Assembly: GCA_021107945.1 (NCBI GenBank)
Contig: JAIORV010000046.1
Location: forward strand, 1-49,073
Direction of reading: 5' to 3'
Length of the DNA: 49,073 bases
Origin: Vulcanimicrobiota bacterium
GTDB taxonomy: Bacteria; Vulcanimicrobiota; JAJTBE01
Shown here: positions 15 through 18,386 of the stretch, in pieces
Numbering within the stretch: position 1 is the first letter of the stretch
Layout: every line of letters begins with the position of its first letter
Made by a program: the position numbers and the translations under genes
Notes under the pieces: model-generated
Told to the model about the DNA's origin: nothing
The model's input: the letters and a program-made list of their open reading frames with translations, nothing else
The model's database searches: none

Positions 15-917
15 TCATGCCAAGATTCCTACTTTGACAAAAAACATGTGCACCCAATTGGTTAACAAAAACAAAGGCGTACTACCTTCTTTATCCTTCG
101 CATTGACATCCGCCCCTTTATCTATGAGAAGTTTTGCTGTATATGGATGTCCCAACGCAGATGCCGCGTGCAATGGTGTTATGCCGTCGGTAGTCACCGC
201 ATTGACATCCGCCCCTCTATCTATGAGAAGTTTTGCTGTCTCTCTATCGGATGTCAATTCTGTACATCCCGACATAATTGCCGCGTGCAATGGTGTTATG
301 CCGTCGGTACCCTTCGCATTGACATCCGCCCCTTTTGATATGAGAAGATTTGCTGTATCTATATATCCCAACGCAGATGCCGCGTGCAATGGTGTTATGC
401 CGTCGGTAGTCATCGCATTGACATCCGCCCCTTTTGATATGAGAAGATTTGCTGTATCTGTATATCCCAACTCAGATGCCTTGTACAATGGCGTTATGCC
501 GTCGGTAGTCACCGCATTAACATCCGCCCCTTTTGATATGAGAAGATTTGCTGTATCTGTATCTCCCATAGATGCCTTGTGCAATGGCGTTAAGCCGTCG
601 GTAGTCACCGCATTAACATCCGCCCCTTTTGATATGAGAAGATTTGCTGTATCTGTATCTCCCATAGATGCCTTGTGCAATGGCGTTAAGCCGTCGGTAG
701 TCACCGCATTAACATCCGCCCCTTTTGATATGAGAAGATTTGCTGTATCTGTATCTCCTCTATAAGCTGCCTCGTGTAATGGTGTCTCGCCGTAGGTAGT
801 CACCGCATTGACAACATCAGGAGATCGTTTAAGGATTTTTTCTACTCTTTTTTTATCTCCAGTTTCTATTGCACCATAAATATCATTATCTGCAAATAGC
901 CCAAAGATACCACCCAT
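15..917 (-). CDS. Ankyrin-repeat protein
   Basis: A protein of 300 residues made almost entirely of ankyrin repeats, recognised by recurring G-x-TPLH-x-A and LL-I-x-x-GADVNA. After a short N-terminal helix (about residues 1-35) there are roughly eight repeats. Ankyrin repeats bind other proteins, and no catalytic domain is visible. No signal peptide or membrane segment is seen, so it is probably cytoplasmic. The ATG has GGAGGG five bases upstream. Two middle repeats are 32 rather than 33 residues because of a one-codon loss, and they are identical at the DNA level. The last repeat breaks after G-STPL into a non-ankyrin tail of about 18 residues, which may be a diverged cap or the result of a frameshift. 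Partner unknown. Confidence 0.85.
   Translation of the reverse strand: MGGIFGLFADNDIYGAIETGDKKRVEKILKRSPDVVNAVTTYGETPLHEAAYRGDTDTANLLISKGADVNAVTTDGLTPLHKASMGDTDTANLLISKGADVNAVTTDGLTPLHKASMGDTDTANLLISKGADVNAVTTDGITPLYKASELGYTDTANLLISKGADVNAMTTDGITPLHAASALGYIDTANLLISKGADVNAKGTDGITPLHAAIMSGCTELTSDRETAKLLIDRGADVNAVTTDGITPLHAASALGHPYTAKLLIDKGADVNAKDKEGSTPLFLLTNWVHMFFVKVGILA
498..758. repeat. Exact 96-bp tandem repeat inside the ankyrin gene
   Basis: A 96-bp unit repeats without any mismatch for about 2.7 copies: the same text starts at 541, 637 and 733, and identity runs from 498 to 758. Each unit encodes one 32-residue ankyrin repeat. Neighbouring repeats in the same gene differ at many positions, so this is a recent in-frame duplication or gene-conversion tract. 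Confidence 0.9.
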
Positions 918-4111: not shown

Positions 4112-4515
4112 TCAAGATTTCTTAACAATGTATTTTTCACTAAACCAATTTGTAACATACTCCAAATCATATCGTTTTTCGGCAATACCCGTGGCAATAT
4201 CTACAATTTCGTCGCTATGAACGGGGTTTCTTTCATAGGCTCCTTTTTTTTTAAAAAGGACATAGCGAAACTCATTCCTGTTCTTTTATTGCCATCACAG
4301 AAGATATAGCCATCAATAATTCTATGTGCATAAAAAGCGGCTTTTTGGTGGAAAGTTTTATGATGATCGTCATTTTTAACATCTTCCACTAAATAATCAA
4401 GGCTATTCTCATTACTGAGATTGTTGTCATTTTTGGAACGAAAACAGGGTCCCTCAATATCCTGGTTATTCCTTATTATGTCTTCTTTTGTGAGATAGCA
4501 TTTACATTTCTGCAA
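4112..4515 (-). pseudogene. Fic/Doc-type toxin with frameshift and active-site His to Tyr change
   Basis: The open frame from 4515 gives YLTKEDII...IFCDGNKRTGMSFAMSFLKK and stops at 4201. Just after the FLKK codons lies an A9 run (minus strand, complement of 4244-4252). In the next frame the sequence continues without a stop as GAYERNPVHSDEIVDIATGI... for 43 residues to TGA at 4112-4114. That is exactly the C-terminal helix expected for a death-on-curing protein, so one extra A would restore about 134 residues. Fic/Doc enzymes transfer AMP or phosphate to targets using the His of HPFxDGNKR. Here that position is Tyr70 (YIFCDGNKR, codon TAT; CAT would be His). The start is a TTG overlapping the upstream gene by 14 bp. 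The toxin is probably inactive, unless slippage occurs or the A9 count is a sequencing error. Confidence 0.75.
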
Positions 4516-4894
4516 GTTTCAACCAAGCCTTTTTGTGTCTTTCCTTTATATTTTTATCAATAATAATATCTATTTCATCATAATACTTCTCAATATTATC
4601 CTCTATTTCTTCCATAAATTTTTTCATTGCTTCCGAAGGAGTGTTTGCAGAAAGTGAGATTTTCAGCTTCTTGTTCTCAGCCTTGAATCCTTTGCCAAAA
4701 ATAGATAAAGTAACAACTATGGGTTTTTTGAGCAGAGTGGTTTTTGTTGAAAGAAGAGGAACTTCCAATTTTTCCTTGTTGTTCAAATATTTAACATATT
4801 TTTCACAGGAATCAAATTCCAATCTATTTTTTTTACTATATTGATTGCCTTTGCTATCTTTTATTACATCAGGAACATCGTTTAGAATACTCAT
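4502..4894 (-). CDS. Putative antitoxin partner of the Fic/Doc protein
   Basis: A 130-residue, charged, soluble protein that I do not recognise as a known family. It has an N-terminal beta-rich part (about 1-85, including VPLLSTKTTLLKKPIVVTLS) and a C-terminal acidic/basic helix (about 88-130, EAMKKFMEEIEDNIEKYYDEI). Its 3' end overlaps the Fic/Doc gene by 14 bp, an arrangement typical of antitoxin-toxin pairs, so an antitoxin role is inferred from context only. GAGGGGTGA precedes the ATG. Like the toxin it is clearly more AT-rich than the flanking genes, consistent with acquisition as a unit. No helix-turn-helix is obvious. Confidence 0.6.
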   Translation of the reverse strand: MSILNDVPDVIKDSKGNQYSKKNRLEFDSCEKYVKYLNNKEKLEVPLLSTKTTLLKKPIVVTLSIFGKGFKAENKKLKISLSANTPSEAMKKFMEEIEDNIEKYYDEIDIIIDKNIKERHKKAWLKLAEM

Positions 4895-5046: not shown

Positions 5047-6417
5047 CTAGTTTTTTCCCGATTTCTTCTCTCCCCACCAACTCTCCAGGCGTGCCTTCAT
5101 TCTCTTTTCATGTCCCAAGTTACCGGGTTCGTAGAAGCGTTTTTTGGAAAATCCCTCGGGCATGTAATCCGATTTGACGAAGTGTCCCGGGTAGTCGTGG
5201 GGATATTTATATTCTTTCCCATACCCCATTGCCTTCATTCCTCTTGTTACCGGGTTTCGAAGTTGGAACGGCACGGGAGGTTGATTTCCCTTTTCGACTT
5301 CTTCCCATGCCCTGTTCAATCCCATATATGCGGTGTTGCTCTTGGGGGCGCAGGCAAGATAAACCGTCGCCTCGGCAAGTGATATTCTCGCCTCCGGCAT
5401 GCCCACAAACTCAACTGCCTGATATGCGGCGTTTGCTACGTTAAGAGCGAATGGATCCGCAAGGCCTATGTCCTCGGCCGCAAGAATGACGACTCTTCTC
5501 GCCACGAACCTGGGATCCTCGCCGGCATGCAACATTCTTGCAAGATAATACAGGGCGGCATCGGGATCGGAGCCCCTCACGCTCTTGATAAATGCTGAAA
5601 TTGTGTTATAATGCTCTTCGCCTGTCCTGTCGTAGAGGGTCTTCCCCGACTGGATTGAATCCAGGAGATGATTTTCATTTATCCTTCGAATTCCGTCCTC
5701 AGCGGGATCCACAACCATTACCGCGGTCTCGAGGGCGTTCAGGGCAATGCGGGCATCACCGCCGCTTGCGTCAATAAGAAACCGGTATGCATCTGCGGAA
5801 AGCTCCACATTGAATTCAGCCAGACCTCTGTCTTTGTCCGCGAGCGCATGATCGATAATTTGCCTCAAGTGCTCCTCTTTGAGTGGCTCCATGCGGTAAA
5901 TTCTCGTGCGGGAAAGGAGAGGTGAGATTACCTCGAAATAAGGATTTTCAGTCGTTGCACCTATGAGAACAACCGCTCCCTTCTCGACATGGGGTAAAAA
6001 GGCATCCTGTTGAGCCTTGTTGAAGCGATGAATCTCGTCAATAAAGAGAACCGTCTTCTGGTGAAGTTTTTTTCGCCTTATGTCGGCCTCTTTTATCACA
6101 TTCCTTACATCCTTCACGCCGGAGTTCACGGCCGCAAGGCTTACCATATGCCCCGATGTTTTACTCTTTATAATGCGCGAGAGAGTTGTCTTGCCGCAAC
6201 CGGGCGGCCCCCATATAATAAATGAGGGAAAGGAATCTTTCTCTATAGCTGACCTGAGCATCTTCCCGGGTCCCAGGATATGATCCTGTCCCAGGAATTC
6301 ATCCAGGCTCTTTGGTCTCATTCGCTCCGCGAGGGGAGCTTTCCATCTGTTCTTTTCACCTGACAAGGATTTGTTACCTCCATAGTGAAAATGGTTGACT
6401 TGTGACGACAAGCACAT
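5047..6417 (-). CDS. rarA: Replication-associated recombination protein A (RarA/MgsA), AAA+ ATPase
   Basis: A clamp-loader-like AAA+ ATPase acting at stalled replication forks. PLAERMRPKSLDEFLGQ is followed by Walker A GPPGCGKTT, Walker B LFIDEIHRFNK, sensor 1 GATTENP and the C-terminal MgsA domain with GSDPDAALYYLARM and AAEDIGLADP, ending in KRFYEPGNLGHE. Length (about 440 residues) is normal for the family. The longest frame starts at ATG 6417. A better start is TTG at 6366, because GGAGG (6377-6381) lies ten bases upstream and the residues before it are not family-like. It is divergent from lexA with a short shared regulatory region, which suggests common damage or replication-stress control (inference). 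Confidence 0.95.
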   Translation of the reverse strand: MCLSSQVNHFHYGGNKSLSGEKNRWKAPLAERMRPKSLDEFLGQDHILGPGKMLRSAIEKDSFPSFIIWGPPGCGKTTLSRIIKSKTSGHMVSLAAVNSGVKDVRNVIKEADIRRKKLHQKTVLFIDEIHRFNKAQQDAFLPHVEKGAVVLIGATTENPYFEVISPLLSRTRIYRMEPLKEEHLRQIIDHALADKDRGLAEFNVELSADAYRFLIDASGGDARIALNALETAVMVVDPAEDGIRRINENHLLDSIQSGKTLYDRTGEEHYNTISAFIKSVRGSDPDAALYYLARMLHAGEDPRFVARRVVILAAEDIGLADPFALNVANAAYQAVEFVGMPEARISLAEATVYLACAPKSNTAYMGLNRAWEEVEKGNQPPVPFQLRNPVTRGMKAMGYGKEYKYPHDYPGHFVKSDYMPEGFSKKRFYEPGNLGHEKRMKARLESWWGEKKSGKN

Positions 6418-6443
6418 AGCGCGTTGCGCTCTTATGATATAAT
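6418..6443 (+). promoter_or_regulatory. lexA promoter with extended -10 and candidate operator
   Basis: TATAAT (6438-6443) preceded by TG at 6435-6436 is a perfect extended -10 box, 22 bp before the lexA ATG. Immediately upstream is the inverted repeat AGCGC-gtt-GCGCT (6418-6430), positioned over the -35 region, where a repressor would block RNA polymerase. It does not match the known LexA boxes of Proteobacteria or Firmicutes. The operator role is inferred from position and symmetry. Confidence 0.5.
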
Positions 6444-6464: not shown

Positions 6465-7130
6465 ATGGACGAAAAACTAAAAAATCTTACTAAACGACAA
6501 CGCTCCATACTCAACTTCATAGTTAAATTTACCGACAAGAACGGGTTTCCTCCCACGATAAGGGATATTGGAAAAGCTGTGGGGTTATCATCCTCATCGA
6601 CAATTCACTTTCACCTCGGCAACCTGGAGAAGGTGGGACTCATACAGAGGGATCCCACAAAGCCAAGGGCTATGAAAGTATTGATATCTCCAGGCAACGG
6701 CAAGAAATCGGGTAAGAAGGAATCCGAGTCACCGGTTATTGAAAAACGGGAAGATGTAGTTGATTATCCCCTTGTAATTGGCTATCAGGAAGAGATTCCA
6801 TTTTTCAGTGAAAGAAATGTGGAGAAAATAATTCCTCTTCCGATTGAGCTTTTTGGAAGTCGGGAGGGATTTCTCCTCCGGATGCCCGGCAAGGGTATGA
6901 TCGATATCGGTATTAATGACGGCGATCTCTGCATAATGAAAAAAACGAACAGTGTTGATGATGGAGATATTGCAGTAATAGCGACGAACAGGGAAATGAC
7001 TGTAAAAAGGGTATTCAGACATCTGGGTGTATATCGTCTGGAGCCTGAGAACAGGCGAATGAATCCCGTGTATGTAAAGGAATTAAAAGTTCTCGGAAAG
7101 CTAACAGGAGTTTTACGCTTATTTTCTTAA
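6465..7130 (+). CDS. lexA: LexA-family repressor lacking the self-cleavage serine and cleavage site
   Basis: A 221-residue LexA homologue. The N-terminal winged helix-turn-helix (about 5-72: LTKRQRSILNFI, PPTIRDIGKAVGLSS) is complete, and the C-terminal S24 fold (100-221) aligns throughout. In active LexA a Ser in GMSM attacks an Ala-Gly bond. Here the segment reads PGKGMIDIGINDGD, with Gly144 (codon GGT) at the serine position, while the lysine K181 (MTVKR) is retained. The cleavage region, VAAGEP in E. coli, reads YQEEIP (107-112), so Ala-Gly is also gone. It should bind DNA and dimerise but not autocleave. LexA proteins with the same losses exist in some cyanobacteria and control non-SOS genes. 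It is divergent from rarA. Confidence 0.9.
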   Translation: MDEKLKNLTKRQRSILNFIVKFTDKNGFPPTIRDIGKAVGLSSSSTIHFHLGNLEKVGLIQRDPTKPRAMKVLISPGNGKKSGKKESESPVIEKREDVVDYPLVIGYQEEIPFFSERNVEKIIPLPIELFGSREGFLLRMPGKGMIDIGINDGDLCIMKKTNSVDDGDIAVIATNREMTVKRVFRHLGVYRLEPENRRMNPVYVKELKVLGKLTGVLRLFS

Positions 7131-7214: not shown

Positions 7215-8051
7215 ATGAAAAGAAAAATTGCAATGTTTTTGTTTATCTGTATTATCGTCGCGACAATATCCGCCTGGGCGGTATCACCAGAATGGAAACT
7301 GGTTATTGCCGTGAAGGGTATTGTGCAGAGTCAATTTACAGGCTCATCAAAATGGGTTCGCATTTGGCAGAGTCGTATGCTCAAAGATGGTGACAAAGCA
7401 AGGACGAAAGCGGATTCCAGAGCAAAAATCAGGCTTGCAGACAACAGTGTTGTAACTGTAGGCGCGAGCTCGGAGGTCGAGGTGTCTCAGTTCAAGCTAA
7501 AGAAGCAATCCAGGGTTGTAAAAATCAAGCTCTTCTTCGGCAAGATAAGGAACAAGGTGGGACGTTTCACAGGTAAGGAGTCAAAATATGAGGTTCAAAC
7601 TCCAAATGCCGTTATGGCGGCAAGAGGAACGGACTTCTATGTAGAGTATGACAACGATCGAGCGGATGAAAGCGAAGAAGAGATCGGAGGATTTACACGC
7701 CTAATGGTATTCTCGGACAATGTCGAGATTACAGCTGGAGGAGTGACCAGAAACATTTCAGCCGGAAATTCAGCAATTATAGGACCGTCCGGGATCATTA
7801 TGATGAATCCTGCAAATTTCATGCCAACAAGCGCGCCTCCTCTGGGAGCCAAAGTTGGACCCGGAGATGCGGATTTAAGGCAGTATGAAGCCACGGAATA
7901 TCATGCGAATATGCCTGAGATTCCACTGGATCCAAATCTTCCGCCACATGGTCCAAATAATACTCCGCCTGCAAGCCCGGAAATTCTTCCCGATGCGCCA
8001 GTAGTACCTCCACCAGGACATACAGGCTCAATTACGGTTATTGTAAAATAG
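7215..8051 (+). CDS. Secreted FecR-domain protein
   Basis: A 278-residue protein with a signal peptide (about 1-22, cleaved near SAWA-VSP) and a FecR domain (about 30-150). Typical signatures are LKDGDKARTKADSRAKIRLADNSVVTVG and YEVQTPNAVMAARGTDFYVEY. The C-terminus (about 195-278) is Pro-rich and disordered. FecR domains sense or scaffold at the cell envelope. In many bacteria such genes sit next to CHASE2 cyclases, as here (the cyclase starts at 8907), so a joint envelope-signal role is likely but unproven. AAGGAG lies eight bases before the ATG. Confidence 0.88.
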   Translation: MKRKIAMFLFICIIVATISAWAVSPEWKLVIAVKGIVQSQFTGSSKWVRIWQSRMLKDGDKARTKADSRAKIRLADNSVVTVGASSEVEVSQFKLKKQSRVVKIKLFFGKIRNKVGRFTGKESKYEVQTPNAVMAARGTDFYVEYDNDRADESEEEIGGFTRLMVFSDNVEITAGGVTRNISAGNSAIIGPSGIIMMNPANFMPTSAPPLGAKVGPGDADLRQYEATEYHANMPEIPLDPNLPPHGPNNTPPASPEILPDAPVVPPPGHTGSITVIVK

Positions 8052-8111: not shown

Positions 8112-8531
8112 ATGATAGAATTAAGCCCTTTAAGAAAAGCTATAAAATGCCTGGATGACTCCCTGAAGATAGTTCATAATCCTGAATTTATCTCAAATTT
8201 GGATTTGGCGGTAAAGGACCTTTTAAAGGCGGGTGTTATCCAAAACTTTAAGGTTACTTATGAGTTATGCTGGAAGTTTATGAAAAGGTATTTAGAAATA
8301 AATATAGGTAGTCAATATATTGACGGCATACACCGAAAAGAGCTTTATCGACTGGCGGCTGAACATCATTTAATCAAAGAAGTTGAAGCATGGTTTGATT
8401 ACAATAAGGCAAGAAACTTGACCTCCCACACTTACCGGGAAGAATATGCCAACGATGTTTTTCAGTCCGCTGAAAAATTTCTGACCGATGCCGGTTTTCT
8501 GCTATCTGCGTTAGAAGCTCGCAATGATTGA
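8112..8531 (+). CDS. hepT: HepT-like HEPN toxin (HI0074 family)
   Basis: A 139-residue all-helical protein of the nucleotidyltransferase substrate-binding (HI0074) family. The HEPN RNase motif R-x4-H-x-Y is intact: R101, H106, Y108 in RNLTSHTY. In characterised HepT/MntA pairs HepT is an RNA-cleaving toxin, and the cognate nucleotidyltransferase neutralises it by adding AMP to this Tyr. The gene overlaps the next one (mntA) by eight bases. The ATG lies directly behind the hairpin repeat with no strong ribosome site. This pair lies between the FecR and cyclase genes and looks inserted, because repeat-like sequence flanks both ends. Confidence 0.82.
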   Translation: MIELSPLRKAIKCLDDSLKIVHNPEFISNLDLAVKDLLKAGVIQNFKVTYELCWKFMKRYLEINIGSQYIDGIHRKELYRLAAEHHLIKEVEAWFDYNKARNLTSHTYREEYANDVFQSAEKFLTDAGFLLSALEARND

Positions 8532-8892
8532 CATAAAGCCGGGACATAAAGAGATAATTGACAATATTTTAAAAGAACATGTGCCGGAATTTGAGGTTCG
8601 GGCATTTGGCTCCAGGGTAAACGGGACGGCAAAAAGTTATTCAGACCTGGATTTGGTTCTGGTAGGAAATCAAGAGGTTAGCATAAGAAAGTTAAGACAG
8701 TTGGAAGACGCTTTCCAGGAGTCTGATTTACCCTTCAGGGTTGATGTTATTGACTGGAACAGAATATCCGATGAATTCAGGAAGGTTATTGAAAAAGGGT
8801 TTGAGGTGATATGGAAAACGGAAAATGGAAGACGGCTAACTGATCCATATTCCGTAATCTGTAATCCGCAATCCGTAGTCCGTAGTCCGTAA
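8524..8892 (+). CDS. mntA: MntA-like nucleotidyltransferase antitoxin
   Basis: A 122-residue minimal nucleotidyltransferase. The GS-x10-D-x-D motif is complete (G29-S30, D41, D43: FGSR...SDLDL) and a third acidic position follows in FRVDVIDW (D74 or D77). This matches MntA, which AMPylates the HEPN toxin HepT. It is coupled to hepT by an eight-base overlap. The family domain ends near EVIWK (about residue 98). The remaining 24 residues (TENGRRLTDPYSV...VVRSP) are encoded by extragenic repeat-like DNA (ATGGAAAACGGA and CCGTAATCCGTAGTC-type text), so the original stop has probably been lost or displaced. Confidence 0.82.
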   Translation: MIDIKPGHKEIIDNILKEHVPEFEVRAFGSRVNGTAKSYSDLDLVLVGNQEVSIRKLRQLEDAFQESDLPFRVDVIDWNRISDEFRKVIEKGFEVIWKTENGRRLTDPYSVICNPQSVVRSP

Positions 8893-8906: not shown

Positions 8907-11198
8907 ATGGTGTGTTTGAATATTCCAAGGATAGGAGCTGATTATACTTCGAGGCAGAAAATAATATCGTTTATCATCAGTGTCAGCTTTTCCATCCTTG
9001 TGGTATTGGCAATCTCTTACAACCTTATTTATAACGATGCATCATTTGAATATAACCCATTCGCATTTATCGACAATCCTATTGTCGATAAATTTTTTGT
9101 AAAGAGATTACTCAAAGCGAAAAACCCCCCGGTTTCACAGAAGGTATTACTCGATCTTGTACTTGTCAAGATCGACAGTGAATCCCTTGGCACCCCGGAA
9201 TTCCCACAGTGGCCCATCCCCCGCGCCCGTTATGCGGAATTGATAAGTAAGCTGGAAAAGGCAGGAGCAAAAACGATAGGCTTTGACATTGTGCTTGCCG
9301 AGGAATCGAATCCGGAAAACGACAAGGTACTGGAAGAAGAACTGGCACGGGTTGATAACGTTTTCCTGCCGTTCTATTTCTATACTTCGCTGGAGAAAAT
9401 CGACAAGGAGCGTATTGGGGCTGAGGATGAAGAAGAGATAATATTCAGCAAAAAATTACCATACAAACCCTTTTACGATGCTCTCCGGAAGAATGTAAAA
9501 CAGGGAGATTCAAGAGTAGGCTTGGTGTCAATCGCCCTTCCCGATGTAGTCAGGCGCGTACCTATATGTCAATCATCGGAAGGGAAGGATTATCATGCCC
9601 TGAGTCTGCTTATGGCTGCACATTTCAAGGGAATCCCCCTGGACAAACTTTCAAATCATGCCGCAAAGGGCTATTTTTTAATGGACGATACAAGCATCCC
9701 CCTGACACAGGGACAGATGCGAGTGAATTACATGTTTCCCCCCAGCAGGGCGGATTTTCTTGCCAACCGGGAATTCAACCTGGGACATTTTATGATGGAA
9801 TTTCCCATAAGCCAGGTTTTCAAGATGAGTGACGAGGAGTTGAAGGATGCATTTAACGGCAGGATGGTCCTTGTTGGTGCGACAGCCGAGGGGGCGAAGG
9901 ATCTCAAGCCCACGCCTTTTGGAGTTATCCCCGGTGTTTATAGTCATGCAAACCTGATATTCTCTTTCCTGGGGAAAAAATTTGTCAGGCCTGCCACACC
10001 TCTTTTCAATATAATCGTTGTCCTGGTTATCGGGATACTGATGGGATTTCTCATGCCAAGGCTATCTCCCTGGGCGGGAGCGGTGTTTACAGTTATCTTA
10101 TGCGTCGGATACTACCAATTTTCTTACTATCGATTTGTTTACTCCGGGGTCATAAATTATATAGCTTCACCAATTATAAGCGCAGGCTTCGGTTATGTGG
10201 TTATTAACATCTATCACCATGTCGCAGAGATGAAGGCAAAAGCAAGCATTTCAAAAATGTTCCGTGAATTTGCGCCCCTGCCGTCTCCCCTTATCGAGAA
10301 ATATGTGGAGCAACATGGTGGCAGTGCGGCAACAGGTGGAGACATTGCCCATGTGACAATCCTGTTTGCCGACATAAGAGGTTATACGGATTTGTCGGAA
10401 AAACTCAGCTCCCAGGAAGTAATGAGTCTTTTGAATGAATATCACGAAGCTATGGGTGAAATTTTCAAGGAAACGGGAGGAGTCATCTTCACATATATCG
10501 GTGATGCTCAGCTTGTGGTCTATGGGCTTGAGGGGATCTCAAAAGTTAATCACGCGGCGGCGGCTATCAAAGCCGGGCTTATGATGCAGAACAGACTTGA
10601 CAAGTTGAAAGCAAAATGGGAGAGTGAAAACAGGAGTATATTCGAGGTAGGCGTGGGAATGTGTACCGGCGAGCTTTCAATTGGTGTTGTCGGCTCAAAG
10701 CAGTTGAAGCAATATACTGTAATCGGCGACACGGTGAATGTGGCGTCCAGAATCCAGGGAATGAGCAGAGAGTTGGCAAGTCCTGTCCTGATTCACGAGA
10801 GAACCTATTTAATGGCAAAAGATTGTATAGAGGCGGACCCCCTGCGCCCGGTGAAATTAAAAGGAAAACAGAAGCTTGTAAATGTATATCGGGCAAAAAA
10901 AGTTCTTGAAATAAAACCCTATGATGGTGACGAAATCAAGGATCTGGATAAAGAAGTTGAGGAACTTCACAGAAAGCGTAGTGAAGCGATTGAAAAACTG
11001 AAAGCCCAAAGAGAGACTAAGACTTCATCGGGACGTGACAGTCGGAGACAGGCGACAAAAAGAAGACGCAGAATGGACGAGGAAAAAGAGAAGGCGGAGG
11101 AGAAAGAGGCAGTTGAGCCGCCTCCGGATCCATCTCTTCTTGAGCCACTCGAGGAGAAATCCAAAGGGCAAGTAATAAATAACGATCAGGAAGAATAA
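8907..11198 (+). CDS. CHASE2-domain adenylate/guanylate cyclase (class III)
   Basis: A 763-residue membrane cyclase. TM1 (about 20-40) is followed by an extracytoplasmic CHASE2 sensor (about 45-360), three clustered membrane helices (about 365-445), and a class III cyclase domain (about 475-670). Metal aspartates are D489 (LFADIRGYT) and D533 (YIGDAQ). YTVIGDTVNVASR carries the transition-state Asn/Arg. It would make cAMP or cGMP in response to an envelope signal. The last 90 residues are a highly charged Arg/Lys/Glu coiled-coil-like tail. AGGAG at 8902-8906 touches the ATG, so the likelier start is TTG at 8916, nine bases downstream of it. It follows the FecR gene, with the HepT/MntA pair between them. 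Confidence 0.93.
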   Translation: MVCLNIPRIGADYTSRQKIISFIISVSFSILVVLAISYNLIYNDASFEYNPFAFIDNPIVDKFFVKRLLKAKNPPVSQKVLLDLVLVKIDSESLGTPEFPQWPIPRARYAELISKLEKAGAKTIGFDIVLAEESNPENDKVLEEELARVDNVFLPFYFYTSLEKIDKERIGAEDEEEIIFSKKLPYKPFYDALRKNVKQGDSRVGLVSIALPDVVRRVPICQSSEGKDYHALSLLMAAHFKGIPLDKLSNHAAKGYFLMDDTSIPLTQGQMRVNYMFPPSRADFLANREFNLGHFMMEFPISQVFKMSDEELKDAFNGRMVLVGATAEGAKDLKPTPFGVIPGVYSHANLIFSFLGKKFVRPATPLFNIIVVLVIGILMGFLMPRLSPWAGAVFTVILCVGYYQFSYYRFVYSGVINYIASPIISAGFGYVVINIYHHVAEMKAKASISKMFREFAPLPSPLIEKYVEQHGGSAATGGDIAHVTILFADIRGYTDLSEKLSSQEVMSLLNEYHEAMGEIFKETGGVIFTYIGDAQLVVYGLEGISKVNHAAAAIKAGLMMQNRLDKLKAKWESENRSIFEVGVGMCTGELSIGVVGSKQLKQYTVIGDTVNVASRIQGMSRELASPVLIHERTYLMAKDCIEADPLRPVKLKGKQKLVNVYRAKKVLEIKPYDGDEIKDLDKEVEELHRKRSEAIEKLKAQRETKTSSGRDSRRQATKRRRRMDEEKEKAEEKEAVEPPPDPSLLEPLEEKSKGQVINNDQEE

Positions 11199-11323: not shown

Positions 11324-12916
11324 GTGAAGCTTATGGATAGCGCTATTCAAAACGGGGCTGAAATCAGCGAGAAAGTCAAAGAATTTCAGGAGCGCGCCCG
11401 GAGGATGAGGGTGTCTTTTGTGGATCTGGAAAACATAGAGATAGATCCTGAAATTGGACAACTCATTCCCGAAGCGATGGCAAGAAGATACCAGGCTATA
11501 TGTATAGGAAAGAAAGAAAGAAAGATCACTCTTGCAATGGCTGATCCCGTAGATGTTTTTGCCCTCGATGATGTGAGAATCAGAACGAATTTTGATGTTG
11601 AGCCGGTTCTGGCGGATCCCGTCGCCATAGAGAAAGCGATTAAAACGGTTTATGGAGAGGATTCATCCTGGAAGGATATTGTTGATACCGCTGAGACTGC
11701 GGTTATAGATATTATTCAGGATGATGATGTTGAGACCGGTGAGGAAGTTGTTATAGATCAACCTGTCATCAGACTGGTAAACCTGATAATTGCCCAGGCC
11801 ATTGAAAAAGGAACCAGTGATATTCACATCGAGCCTAATGAGAGAGAAGTTCTTGTGCGCTATAGAATTGACGGCGTTCTTCATGAGATCATGACCATTC
11901 CAAAATCTCTTGAATCTGCCGTTCTGGCTCGAATCAAGATCATGTCGGATATGAGACTTGACGAAAAAAGAGTTCCCCAGGATGGCAGGATACACCTCAA
12001 ATTAAGATCGGGAGATTACGATTTTCGTGTCTCAACTCTCCCCACGGTTATGGGAGAAAGCGCGGTCATGCGTATCCTGGACAAGAGAAGCATTATGGTC
12101 GAATTAAAAGACATGGGTTTTTCAGAACAAGATTATAAGAAATGGGTTGGGGCTATTAATATCACAAACGGGATAATCCTGGTCACAGGCCCCACAGGGT
12201 CCGGAAAATCAACCACGCTTTATGCAACTTTAAAAATGCTCAATAAGCCCGACGTGAAAATTCTCACTGTTGAAGATCCTGTCGAATATAACCTGAAAGG
12301 TATTATTCAGGTTCAAACAAATCGAAAGGCAGGACTCGATTTTTCCAGAGCGCTCAGGGCATTCCTCCGGCAAGACCCCGACAAGATAATGGTCGGAGAA
12401 ATTCGAGACAAAGAAACAGGAGGCATCGCTATTGAAGCGGCGCTCACCGGGCATATGGTATTAAGTACACTACATACAAACAACTCGGTTCTTACCATTA
12501 CAAGACTTACAGAGATGGGAATTGAACCTTTCCTTATCTCTTCAACAATCGTGGCAATACTTGCGCAAAGATTGGGAAGAAAAATCTGCAAGAAATGCAG
12601 ACAAGAAATTTCAAAACCAAAAAAACTGATGGAAATTTTCAATAAAATGGAAATCGATCCCAAAGAAGTTATTCTCTATAAAGGTGAAGGCTGTAATGCA
12701 TGCAATCAGACCGGCTACAAGGGGCGTGTTGGAATATATGAGCTCCTGATTGCCAGTGATACTTTTAAAGATCTTATTAACAAAGAGGCGCATTACGCGG
12801 AGCTTTTCGCCCAATCCAAAAAAGACGGCTTGACCACGCTATATGAGGACGGACTGAAAAAAGTTGCCTCCGGGATTACCACTTATGAAGAATTGTATCG
12901 GGTAACAGCGGACTAG
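11324..12916 (+). CDS. Type II secretion / type IV pilus assembly ATPase (GspE/PilB family)
   Basis: A 530-residue hexameric secretion ATPase. The T2SSE N-terminal domain (about 20-120) is followed by the ATPase core with Walker A GPTGSGKSTT (about 289-298), the Asp box ILTVEDPVEY, Walker B MVGEIRDKETG, the His box ALTGHMVLSTLHTN, and a zinc module (CKKC ... CNAC). It powers pseudopilus or pilus assembly from the cytoplasmic side. No other gsp/pil genes are in the window. GTG at 11324 opens the frame, but ATG at 11333 is the likelier start because the GGTGA at 11323-11327 then has proper spacing. It is probably in an operon with the next gene, 14 bp downstream. Confidence 0.95.
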   Translation: MKLMDSAIQNGAEISEKVKEFQERARRMRVSFVDLENIEIDPEIGQLIPEAMARRYQAICIGKKERKITLAMADPVDVFALDDVRIRTNFDVEPVLADPVAIEKAIKTVYGEDSSWKDIVDTAETAVIDIIQDDDVETGEEVVIDQPVIRLVNLIIAQAIEKGTSDIHIEPNEREVLVRYRIDGVLHEIMTIPKSLESAVLARIKIMSDMRLDEKRVPQDGRIHLKLRSGDYDFRVSTLPTVMGESAVMRILDKRSIMVELKDMGFSEQDYKKWVGAINITNGIILVTGPTGSGKSTTLYATLKMLNKPDVKILTVEDPVEYNLKGIIQVQTNRKAGLDFSRALRAFLRQDPDKIMVGEIRDKETGGIAIEAALTGHMVLSTLHTNNSVLTITRLTEMGIEPFLISSTIVAILAQRLGRKICKKCRQEISKPKKLMEIFNKMEIDPKEVILYKGEGCNACNQTGYKGRVGIYELLIASDTFKDLINKEAHYAELFAQSKKDGLTTLYEDGLKKVASGITTYEELYRVTAD

Positions 12917-12930
12917 GAGGATTTTTCAGG

Positions 12931-13989
12931 TTGCAGACAAGTGAAAGAATAAGCACATTATCTCGCCTTTGTCAGATTGGCCAGGAGTTAACCTCCTCAA
13001 CCGATACTGACGAGTTGCTTGCCAAGATTTCCAGGTGCAGCAATGAAGTTTGCAATTCGGAAACAACTTCCATCATACTCCTGGATGAAGACACAAGAGA
13101 GATGTATTTTAAAAAGACCACAGGCGAAATGGGAGAGATCATAAAAAGAATCAGAATTCCACTTAACGAGCATAGTATAGCCGGATGGTGCATAATAAAC
13201 AAAAAACCCCAGATCGTGCATGATGTTTCAAAGGATCCCAGGCATTACAAGAAAGTAGATAAGGTGACAAAGTTTGTAACTCACTCAATTCTCGCCGTTC
13301 CGATTATATGGGGTGACAGGGTTTTTGGTGTTGTAGAGGCGGTAAATAAAAAAGGCGGTAATGAATTTACAGAGAAGGATCTTGAGTACCTTACCGTGCT
13401 GGCGCATCAAGCCGCCGTGGCTCTAAAGAACGTTTCATTGATGGAGAAGCTTCAGAATTTCTTTAGTTATTCCGTAGAAATTATCATCGCCGCCTTAGAA
13501 GCGCTTGAGCCCTTTGCAAGAGGCCATATTATTCGAGTGGCACGTCTTGCCGTGGCGGTCGCCCGGGAGATGAATTATGAGGGAAAAGAGCTTGAAAATA
13601 TTTGGTATGCCGCTTATTTTCATGATGTGGGAAAACTTGCAAGAGAGAGTATATACATGTCCCAACAGGAAGTTGAAAGAATGCATCCCACTATGGGCGC
13701 AAGTTTAATCGAGAATATCAGGATCCTTGCCAATGCGGCGCCTATCATCCGGGACCATCAAGAACACCTGGATGGCAGTGGCTACCCGGAAGGCAAAAAG
13801 GGAGAAGAAATTTCGGAAGGTGCACAGATTATCGGGATAGCCGAGGAGTACGACGAGATGTGGTCTGCCGCAAGGGACACACAGGAAAAGAAGGAATTTG
13901 ACAAAAACTTCATTGAGTATATTCAGAACAAGTTCAAGCCCATCATAATAGAAAAATTTAGTAATGTCCTAAAAAAAATAATGATTTGA
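12931..13989 (+). CDS. GAF-HD-GYP protein, putative cyclic di-GMP phosphodiesterase
   Basis: A 352-residue protein: GAF domain (about 5-165, LCQIGQELTSSTDTDELL, SILAVPI, EKDLEYLTVLAHQAAVAL) and an HD domain of HD-GYP type (about 180-320). The HD pair is H231-D232 in YFHDVGKLA. The GYP loop is DHQEHLDGSGYPEGKKGEEI (GYP 284-286), followed by GAQIIGIAEEYDEM. The family hydrolyses c-di-GMP; activity is inferred. TTG start at 12931 with AGGAGG ten bases upstream. Position just after gspE suggests c-di-GMP-linked control of secretion or pili (inference). Confidence 0.85.
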   Translation: MQTSERISTLSRLCQIGQELTSSTDTDELLAKISRCSNEVCNSETTSIILLDEDTREMYFKKTTGEMGEIIKRIRIPLNEHSIAGWCIINKKPQIVHDVSKDPRHYKKVDKVTKFVTHSILAVPIIWGDRVFGVVEAVNKKGGNEFTEKDLEYLTVLAHQAAVALKNVSLMEKLQNFFSYSVEIIIAALEALEPFARGHIIRVARLAVAVAREMNYEGKELENIWYAAYFHDVGKLARESIYMSQQEVERMHPTMGASLIENIRILANAAPIIRDHQEHLDGSGYPEGKKGEEISEGAQIIGIAEEYDEMWSAARDTQEKKEFDKNFIEYIQNKFKPIIIEKFSNVLKKIMI

Positions 13990-16817: not shown

Positions 16818-18386
16818 TTGAAAATAAGAATCTATATAATAATAGTTATTGGATTAATAATAAGCGGGTGGCTTCTTATACAGGGATGTAATGCTCATAA
16901 GAGGAAAAGGAGTGGAAAAAAAGTGGCTGAAAAAAAGTTGGAGTTCGTAAGAATGCCTGTTTTTAACGGACAGTTTTATGAAGGTAACCCGGATAAACTG
17001 AGAAAATTGATTAACAAATTTTTTGACAATGTACCGGAGATTGAAATCCCGGGAAAATTAATCGGATTAATAGAACCCCATGCAGGCTATCCATTTTCGG
17101 GGCAGGTTGCCGCATACGGATATAAGCAACTGATTGGCAAAAAATATAAGACAGCCATTGTTATGGCTCCCAGTCACCGTCACCGTTTTGAAGGAGTTTC
17201 CATAATAAAGGAGGGTAAATATCGTACTCCTCTGGGTGATGTTCCTATTGATAAAGAGGCGGCGGATAAAATCTCCTCGCACAACCCAAAATTAATAAGA
17301 TTCGTACCTCAGGCCCATACAAGCGAGCATTCTCTCGAGGTACAGGTTCCATTGCTTCAGGTCGCCCTCGGAGATGACTGGAAAATTGTGCCTATAGTAT
17401 TCGGAGCCGTTGATCCGGGCACCTGTAAGATAGTGGCGGAGGCTATCGCAAAGCAATATGATCCTGACACACAGATCCTCATAGCTTCCTCCGATATGTA
17501 TCACGGCTATTCATACGAGGATTGCATGAGTATGGACAAGAAAACACTTGATAAAATTGATAAGATGAACCTTACGGGTCTTGTGGAGGCGTTTCGAACC
17601 AGAGAATCAGAATGTTGCGGGTCCGGCCCCATAATGGTGGTAATGATGCTCACAACCTCCATGGGTGGAGACGCCAAGATCTTAAAATATACAAACTCTG
17701 CCGACATCACGGGATCCAGGGGTGAATGGACGGTAGGATACGGTTGCGTGGCTTTCTATGTCGAAGAAGGCGCAAAAGTCACGAGAAAAGTAGAAGAGCC
17801 TAAAAAAAAGGAAGAAGACATTGAGGAAAAAGTGGAGTTCACGGTAACCGGGGAGCAGAAGAAAATGCTCATTTCAATGGCAAGGAAGACACTCGAGGAG
17901 AAGCTGATCAACGGCAAGGATGTTGAATTTGATCAGAAGAGTGATTTGCTCGATAAGAAACTCGGTTTATTCGTAACTCTTCGCAAGGGACCTCATCTCA
18001 GGGGTTGTATAGGTCACTGCTTTCCATACAAAAAATTACGGATTGCATTACCCGAGCTGGCCCTTGCCGCCGCTCTGGGAGATTCCCGATTCCCCACAAT
18101 GAAAAAGGGAGAATTGAAGGACATAAACATCGAGATTTCTCTTCTCTCACCAATGAGGCAGATCAGTGATTATAACAAAATTAAAATTCCGGGTCACGGC
18201 GTCTATGTGAAGAAAGGATTCCGCTCAGGTGTATTTCTGCCACAGGTGGCGGTCGAGACAGGTTGGAACAGGGAAACCTTCATGGCGCACCTATGTAGTG
18301 ACAAGGCGGGGTTACCCTCTGACGCATGGAAAAAGCCCGGGATTGAACTATATGTCTTCACGGTGATAAAGTTCGAGGAAGAATAA
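16818..18386 (+). CDS. Memo-AMMECR1 fusion (AmmeMemoRadiSam B+A) with lipoprotein-like leader
   Basis: A 522-residue fusion. Residues about 45-325 form a Memo domain with the metal/active-site set: H88 (EPHAGYPFSG), H120/H122 (SHRH), SSDMYHGYS and CCGSGPIM (C266/C267). Residues about 340-520 form an AMMECR1 domain (LRGCIGHC, LPELALAAALGDSRFP, FLPQVAVETGWN). These two and a radical-SAM enzyme make up the AmmeMemoRadiSam system of unknown chemistry. No radical-SAM gene is in the window. The N-terminus (residues 4-24) is a hydrophobic leader ending in LLIQGC, a possible lipobox, so this copy may be exported and anchored. TTG start at 16818 with GGGAGGG seven bases upstream. Confidence 0.9.
   Translation: MKIRIYIIIVIGLIISGWLLIQGCNAHKRKRSGKKVAEKKLEFVRMPVFNGQFYEGNPDKLRKLINKFFDNVPEIEIPGKLIGLIEPHAGYPFSGQVAAYGYKQLIGKKYKTAIVMAPSHRHRFEGVSIIKEGKYRTPLGDVPIDKEAADKISSHNPKLIRFVPQAHTSEHSLEVQVPLLQVALGDDWKIVPIVFGAVDPGTCKIVAEAIAKQYDPDTQILIASSDMYHGYSYEDCMSMDKKTLDKIDKMNLTGLVEAFRTRESECCGSGPIMVVMMLTTSMGGDAKILKYTNSADITGSRGEWTVGYGCVAFYVEEGAKVTRKVEEPKKKEEDIEEKVEFTVTGEQKKMLISMARKTLEEKLINGKDVEFDQKSDLLDKKLGLFVTLRKGPHLRGCIGHCFPYKKLRIALPELALAAALGDSRFPTMKKGELKDINIEISLLSPMRQISDYNKIKIPGHGVYVKKGFRSGVFLPQVAVETGWNRETFMAHLCSDKAGLPSDAWKKPGIELYVFTVIKFEEE

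Follow-up and report, generated by a model that had tools for sequence, protein, structure and literature searches.

LexA2, a second LexA predicted to be non-cleavable, at a conserved locus of Eremiobacterota

LexA is the textbook one-shot switch driven by proteolysis. The LexA of Synechocystis sp. PCC 6803 (sll1626) carries Gly-Gly in place of the Ala-Gly cleavage site and Asp in place of the catalytic Ser (PMC3091678). It is not a regulator of the SOS response or of DNA metabolism and binds the promoters of pilA7 and pilA9; its loss alters the expression of cAMP/SYCRP1-linked motility genes (PMC4759255), and its activity may be tunable by phosphorylation (PMC7567884). A second LexA has been described in Leptospira interrogans, where LexA2 is 28% identical to LexA1, differs from it in the DNA-contact residues and binds its own promoter, and where Ser and Lys are kept, the protein is probably cut at Cys-Gly and is depleted after UV-C (PMC3789691). 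According to a published model of LexA duplication, the diverged copy takes over the SOS regulon (PMC8565304). Our literature search found no publication mentioning LexA together with Eremiobacterota or WPS-2.

Here, we describe a LexA paralogue, LexA2, encoded in a stretch of 49,073 nucleotides (the window; contig JAIORV010000046.1) of a Vulcanimicrobiota bacterium (assembly GCA_021107945.1, here G000). Like Synechocystis LexA, it has lost both Ala-Gly and Ser and is associated with cyclic-nucleotide and pilus-type genes, in this case as neighbours of its gene. In contrast to Synechocystis, a canonical LexA coexists in the genome, the replacements are Glu-Glu and Gly, and no such fixed locus has been described in the cyanobacterium. 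We treat the likeness as an apparent parallel outcome. It also resembles Leptospira LexA2 in being a second, divergent LexA, whereas the Leptospira protein is still an SOS-type repressor. To our knowledge, no cleavage-dead LexA paralogue has been described so far that is fixed at one locus and accompanies a canonical LexA in many genomes of a phylum. We consider it likely that LexA2 is a non-cleavable, non-SOS, stable dimeric regulator of its own conserved locus.

The LexA2 protein and the canonical LexA of the same genome

The frame of lexA2 is complete and free of frameshifts, and its product matches the TIGR00498 lexA profile with 162.2 bits (cut-off 110.95). Residues 6–69 correspond to PF01726 (LexA DNA-binding, 81.3 bits) and residues 115–213 to PF00717 (Peptidase S24, 67.1 bits), both above the cut-off. 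The cleavage residues were assigned by alignment with 34 canonical LexAs, among which the Ala109-Gly110 and Ser144 columns are nearly invariant and Lys181 is invariant:

6465..7130 (+): lexA2, second LexA paralogue of 221 amino acids with an ATG start (profile matches, alignment, AlphaFold model)
6480..6671 (+): winged-helix DNA-binding domain with the Gram-positive-type recognition helix SSSSTIHFHL (PF01726)
6789..6794 (+): position of the scissile Ala-Gly, here Glu109-Glu110, codons GAA GAG (alignment)
6894..6896 (+): position of the nucleophilic Ser, here Gly144, codon GGT, with GKGM for GDSM (alignment)
7005..7007 (+): general-base Lys181, retained, codon AAA (invariant alignment column)

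This alignment bears out the preliminary description of the DNA, which had read Gly144 for Ser, an acidic pair for Ala-Gly and a retained Lys181; Asp143 of the canonical GDSM is changed as well, to Lys. LexA2 of the window thus has neither an Ala-Gly/Cys-Gly bond nor a catalytic Ser, while the catalytic Lys is present, and as in the Synechocystis-type protein the DNA-binding domain is retained despite the loss of Ala-Gly and Ser. Both Ala-Gly and Ser are kept in all 80 named LexAs of other organisms used for comparison (L080–L159, mostly Bacillota and Actinomycetota), and because of this the double loss is unusual.

The AlphaFold model of LexA2, built with 35 sequences, has a mean pLDDT of 86.6 and a disordered linker (residues 76–94). 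In a Foldseek search against the PDB, its best matches were Thermotoga LexA and E. coli LexA G85D and S119A, the latter two being the classic cleavage-dead mutants, and its C-domain aligned to the PDB LexAs with TM-scores by target of 0.84–0.89. Each of the two E. coli variants (PDB 1jhf, 1jhh) bears one of the two losses of the window's LexA2, although they are engineered laboratory mutants with single changes. LexA2 therefore appears, according to its model, to consist of a winged helix and an S24/LexA C-terminal fold in which the fold for dimerisation is intact. The earlier reading of intact DNA-binding and dimer domains agrees with the PF01726 match and with this model, and its comparison with cyanobacterial LexA was apt. 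Its expectation that LexA2 should not be able to cut itself stands likewise, judged from the sequence and from the model with its nearest structures.

The genome G000 is a draft of 5.56 Mb, 98.6% complete with 3.56% contamination, and the nearest relatives that we found belong to the same phylum, none being closer. It encodes one further LexA (C76:13319-13915), the only one besides LexA2, in which KIAAG, GDSM and ATVK are all intact, and one RecA (C86). The C76 LexA is about 29% identical to LexA2, and its recognition helix reads SLNAVRRHLK as against SSSSTIHFHL. In the promoter of its gene, TACATATGTA directly follows TTGACA. A search of G000 for the regulon of this LexA via TACATATGTA yielded no clear SOS gene set, and there was no TACATATGTA-type site near recA. 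The C76 protein would be the working SOS repressor, and together with RecA it would handle DNA damage. The preliminary description had taken LexA2 for the SOS repressor of the genome, with a puzzling mode of relief from repression. That puzzle has largely gone because a canonical LexA and RecA are present in the same genome, and for the same reason we rejected LexA2 as a sole SOS regulator relieved by some unidentified route.

The lexA2 locus and its promoters

In nine families (f1, f2, f3, f4, f10, f11, f12, f13 (genus g26) and f15), lexA2 lies at one recognisable locus, and the conserved block was absent around canonical lexA at all of the 22 loci examined. On one flank, the locus encodes a YtxH-like protein, a STAS protein, an RsbW-like kinase (HATPase) and a sigma-70 family factor; on the other, a FecR-domain protein (f1, f2, f10, f12, f13 and f15), a CHASE2-cyclase (f1, f2, f10, f12 and f13), a cNMP-binding HD-GYP protein, a PilB/GspE-type ATPase and a GAF-HD-GYP protein. 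The domains of these proteins were checked with Pfam. In the window, the locus contains the following neighbours of lexA2:

5047..6366 (-): rarA (RarA-type AAA ATPase), divergent from lexA2, with a likely TTG start and the SD sequence GGAGGT; the first-ATG reading frame reaches 6417
7215..8051 (+): FecR-domain protein, the conserved next gene (PF04773)
8907..11198 (+): CHASE2-adenylate/guanylate cyclase, locus member (PF05226 and PF00211)
11324..12916 (+): PilB/GspE-type ATPase, locus member (MshEN and T2SSE)
12931..13989 (+): GAF and HD-GYP-type protein, locus member (Pfam domains)

The neighbourhood with rarA, which had been singled out at the outset, is real, and rarA is divergent from lexA2 not only in f1 but also in f3 (L172) and f10 (L177, L061). 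However, the examined LexA2 locus of several families is without rarA, and the sigma module and the FecR/CHASE2-cyclase/PilB context are more widely conserved. The G000 homologue of the sigma factor is found on a separate contig (C31:275-1063), near genes for a PilB/PilT-like ATPase and type IV pilus/secretion-like proteins; this match contains one TAA. The cyclase gene that occurs without lexA2 in f5 does not lie in the block, and the f6 contig did not extend far enough for a decision.

Several other genes of the window may be mentioned. The FecR and CHASE2-cyclase genes are separated at 8112-8892 (+) by an MNT/HEPN-like pair (PF08780 and PF01909), which encodes a nucleotidyltransferase substrate-binding-like protein and a nucleotidyltransferase. 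Downstream of rarA, at 4201-4894 (-), there are two short overlapping reading frames, one of them Fic/Doc-like by eye (HRIIDGYIFCDGNKRTG), which occupy the place of the YtxH-STAS-RsbW-sigma genes of other families. An ankyrin-repeat protein whose tandem repeats are almost identical (KGADVNAVTTDGLTPLHKASMGDTDTANLLIS) is encoded at 15-917 (-), and the product of 16818-18386 (+) resembles, by eye, a MEMO-type domain fused to an AMMECR1-type domain.

Two short elements were noted between the divergent starts of rarA and lexA2:

6399..6412 (no strand assigned): CTTGTGACGACAAG, a perfect inverted repeat, operator candidate only (palindrome search)
6433..6443 (+): TATGATATAAT, an extended -10-like element upstream of lexA2 (consensus match only)

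The pattern CTTGTGACGACAAG is not enriched in G000 (7 occurrences versus 8 for a control pattern). Both this repeat and AGCGCGTTGCGCT (6418-6430) were discarded as lexA2 operator, since palindromes show no excess beyond chance in the intergenic region. The window's own lexA2 promoter has neither a Cheo-like box nor a significant palindrome upstream, which weighs against autoregulation here. In genus g15 (f11), CGAAYANNTRTTCG, a Cheo-box-like palindrome, stands just upstream of lexA2 in four of the four genomes having the gene, a count that is circular insofar as the pattern was derived from these very promoters of congeneric genomes. It occurs only once or twice per g15 genome of about 8 Mb, and in the g15 genome G044, where lexA2 was not found, it is likewise absent. 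The support for this putative box that is not circular comes from how seldom it occurs elsewhere and from its similarity to the GAACNNNNGTTC SOS box. An attempt to derive a regulon from exact CGAAYANNTRTTCG sites in G000 was abandoned (3 versus 2 for the control, apparently inside reading frames).

A recognition helix like that of LexA2 is seen in the sister families f9, f14 and f16, whose canonical LexAs have helices of the type SSSSTIHAHL or SSSSTVQSHL and are about 37–42% identical to the window's protein. In contrast to LexA2, these proteins keep Ala-Gly, Ser and Lys intact, their genes lie in a different neighbourhood, and 12 of their 13 lexA promoters have GAACNNNNGTTY-type boxes, the exception being due to a mispredicted start. 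Most of these promoters (L179–L191) have a pair of GAACNNNNGTTY-like boxes at a spacing of about 60 bases, which suggests a conserved double operator upstream of canonical lexA in Eremiobacterota. The promoter of an f13 canonical lexA (L195) has two perfect GAACNNATGTTC boxes 33 bases apart, despite a helix of the other type (STQAVSRHL). In the window's LexA2, the His of the recognition helix is followed by Phe (HFHL), as against Ala, Ser, Gly, Cys or Asn in relatives, and because of this residue an altered operator is conceivable.

The retention of the LexA dimer domain in both LexA2 (Pfam and model) and canonical LexA (Pfam), together with the divergent rarA of f1, f3 and f10, could also be read as a sign that LexA2 modulates the SOS response in a dominant manner, setting an uninducible floor of repression that includes rarA by mixed dimers or by operator competition with canonical LexA. 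We regard this as improbable: the recognition helices of the two proteins differ, as do the promoters, with TACATATGTA at canonical lexA of G000 and GAACNNNNGTTY in the sister-type, and rarA is missing from the examined locus in several families. Mixed dimers in particular are unlikely because the two proteins are only about 29% identical.

LexA2 across the phylum and the routes to non-cleavability

Our phylum-wide searches for LexA covered 57 and 97 other genomes. As a rule, the LexA of f9, f14 and f16 is single and canonical, and its recognition helix is of the type found in the window's LexA2; most other families have a C76-type canonical LexA plus a LexA2 with an SSSST-type helix. Both types are present in 16 genomes, counting that of the window, and the LexA2 type alone was seen in G001 (62% complete), G003, G012, G022 and the f8 genomes G007, G010 and G014. 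The f10 genome G012 is 100% complete but in 940 contigs; its LexA2 is split over C47 and C85, and no canonical LexA was found. These apparent LexA2-only genomes count against the reading of LexA2 as a non-SOS regulator.

The cleavage elements of the LexA2s were read by alignment to the canonical profile. The window's protein has Glu-Glu, Gly and Lys at the positions of the cleavage site, Ser and Lys, respectively. In f10 and f2, Ala-Gly is absent, with Ser and Lys retained. In f12, Ser is replaced by Ala and Lys by Arg; in f3, Ser by Thr and Lys by Gln; and in f11 and f15 both residues are gone. They are also gone in genus g26 of f13, where Ala-Gly (RAGMP) stands at the expected place in three of four genomes; these proteins (L052, L053 and L054, with VRAGMP and no Ser or Lys) are the mirror image of those of f10 and f2. 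Worn as it is, the C-terminal part of the f11, f13 and f15 proteins is still recognised by the profile of the LexA C-domain (hhalign probability 98.8), and in f8 acidic repeats take the place of the S24 domain. At the f8 loci L173:7986-9638, L174:7998-8621 and L175:4932-6437, long tandem repeats of acidic character (EEVASEPLIEEVVPVIEKEELE or EEKEARDRIKSELEK) come after a LexA-type winged helix, and in L173 and L175 the gene comes after a Roadblock/LC7 gene. No LexA2 has all three cleavage elements together, and no single loss is common to all; a statement that Ala-Gly is lost in every LexA2 would be wrong, given the three f13 genomes. Gly144, whose conservation in the lineage had been raised as a question at the start, proved not to be conserved: at its position, syntenic homologues carry Ser, Ala or Thr or lack an equivalent residue. 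If the Ala-Gly of f13 is ancestral, cleavage would have been lost at least twice, and such repeated loss points to selection for non-cleavability, or to none against it, once the other LexA ran the SOS response.

In a phylogenetic tree, the 12 tested LexA2s cluster with an SH-aLRT support of 43, the C76-type canonical LexAs form one clade (100) and the f9-type another (98), and the LexA of L125 (Candidatus Eremiobacterota; Vulcanimicrobiota in NCBI's naming) falls within the f9 clade (98–100). With a support of 43, we dropped the tree as proof of a single origin of all LexA2s; the conservation of the locus is the better argument.

The persistence of Lys181 and of the S24 fold in LexA2, and of the Ser-Lys pair in the f10 and f2 homologues, would fit a protein that still responds to DNA damage in another way, through a different protease or through RecA-dependent release without cleavage; a LexA-like protein, IrvR, is reported to be under RecA-independent control (PMC7101444). 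We give this possibility little credence, since the catalytic residues are wholly gone in f11, f13 and f15 and the neighbours are mostly signalling and pilus-type genes, with rarA the exception as a repair gene. A non-SOS regulator of the locus remains our preferred reading. In congeneric genomes of g15 (f11) and g26 (f13), 74–75 of the 75 residues of the LexA2 DNA-binding domain are identical, with dN/dS of 0–0.05, and outside this domain dN/dS is 0.02–0.28. In these two genera, lexA2 is a working gene under strong purifying selection. It is consequently very unlikely that LexA2 represents the decaying remains of an ancestral LexA that survived by chance: cleavage elements were lost bit by bit and differently from lineage to lineage, and the f8 copies lack the S24 domain, which might suggest decay, but dN/dS in the two genera approaches zero for the DNA-binding domain and lies well under 1 elsewhere, and the same locus recurs in nine families with open frames throughout. 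An assembly or binning artefact, with lexA2 from a foreign organism or with read errors, can practically be dismissed even for a draft genome with contamination, since the lexA2-FecR-CHASE2-PilB block is common to other families of the phylum and several independent codons are changed in an intact frame. The preliminary description had argued against a sequencing error, and this now seems very unlikely indeed, with parts of the cleavage machinery lacking in homologues of eight other families; a read error or pseudogene is likewise rejected in view of the homologues at the same locus, the intact frame and the selection in g15 and g26.

A proposed role for LexA2 and its meaning

Based on the domain content, the model and the gene neighbourhood, we infer the function, DNA binding, repression, targets and relief signal of LexA2 in the window's species as follows: (i) LexA2 would retain the winged helix and the dimer-forming fold without self-cleavage; (ii) its dimer would bind within its own locus, most simply as a repressor and autoregulator; (iii) its targets would be, on one flank, rarA or the STAS-RsbW-sigma module or both, and, on the other, the genes for the FecR protein, the CHASE2-cyclase, the cNMP-binding HD-GYP protein, the PilB-type ATPase and the GAF-HD-GYP protein; (iv) RecA would not inactivate it, and relief would be non-proteolytic, through the protein level, sigma-factor antagonism, modification, a ligand or a partner protein. 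The gene neighbourhood suggests that LexA2 acts at pilus and other non-repair promoters. According to this scenario, the SOS switch has probably been converted, at the lexA2 locus, to an ordinary regulator of local genes.

A wider hypothesis, which we put forward tentatively and would not yet back over its alternatives, is that across much of Eremiobacterota a LexA with another recognition helix took the place of an SOS-type repressor. The LexA2 copy, having become non-cleavable along independent routes, would have turned into a fixed regulator that works without proteolysis and ties a sigma-factor partner-switching module to a cyclic-nucleotide and type IV pilus-type signalling locus, and its S24 domain would now be a dimerisation or sensing module.

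In summary, the LexA2 proteins found in nature can be arranged in steps: some keep Ser-Lys but have no cleavage site, others have lost Ser, and in the last group the S24 domain is gone. In this series LexA would be uncoupled from DNA damage, with a canonical LexA still present in most genomes and the gene mostly at one conserved locus. Such a series allows one to ask how damage sensing gives way to ordinary transcriptional control, and which mechanism serves as the off switch in place of proteolysis. If the link to pili and cAMP is true, LexA2 would be a second case beside Synechocystis, which would suggest that cleavage-dead LexAs tend toward the control of motility and cyclic-nucleotide signalling.
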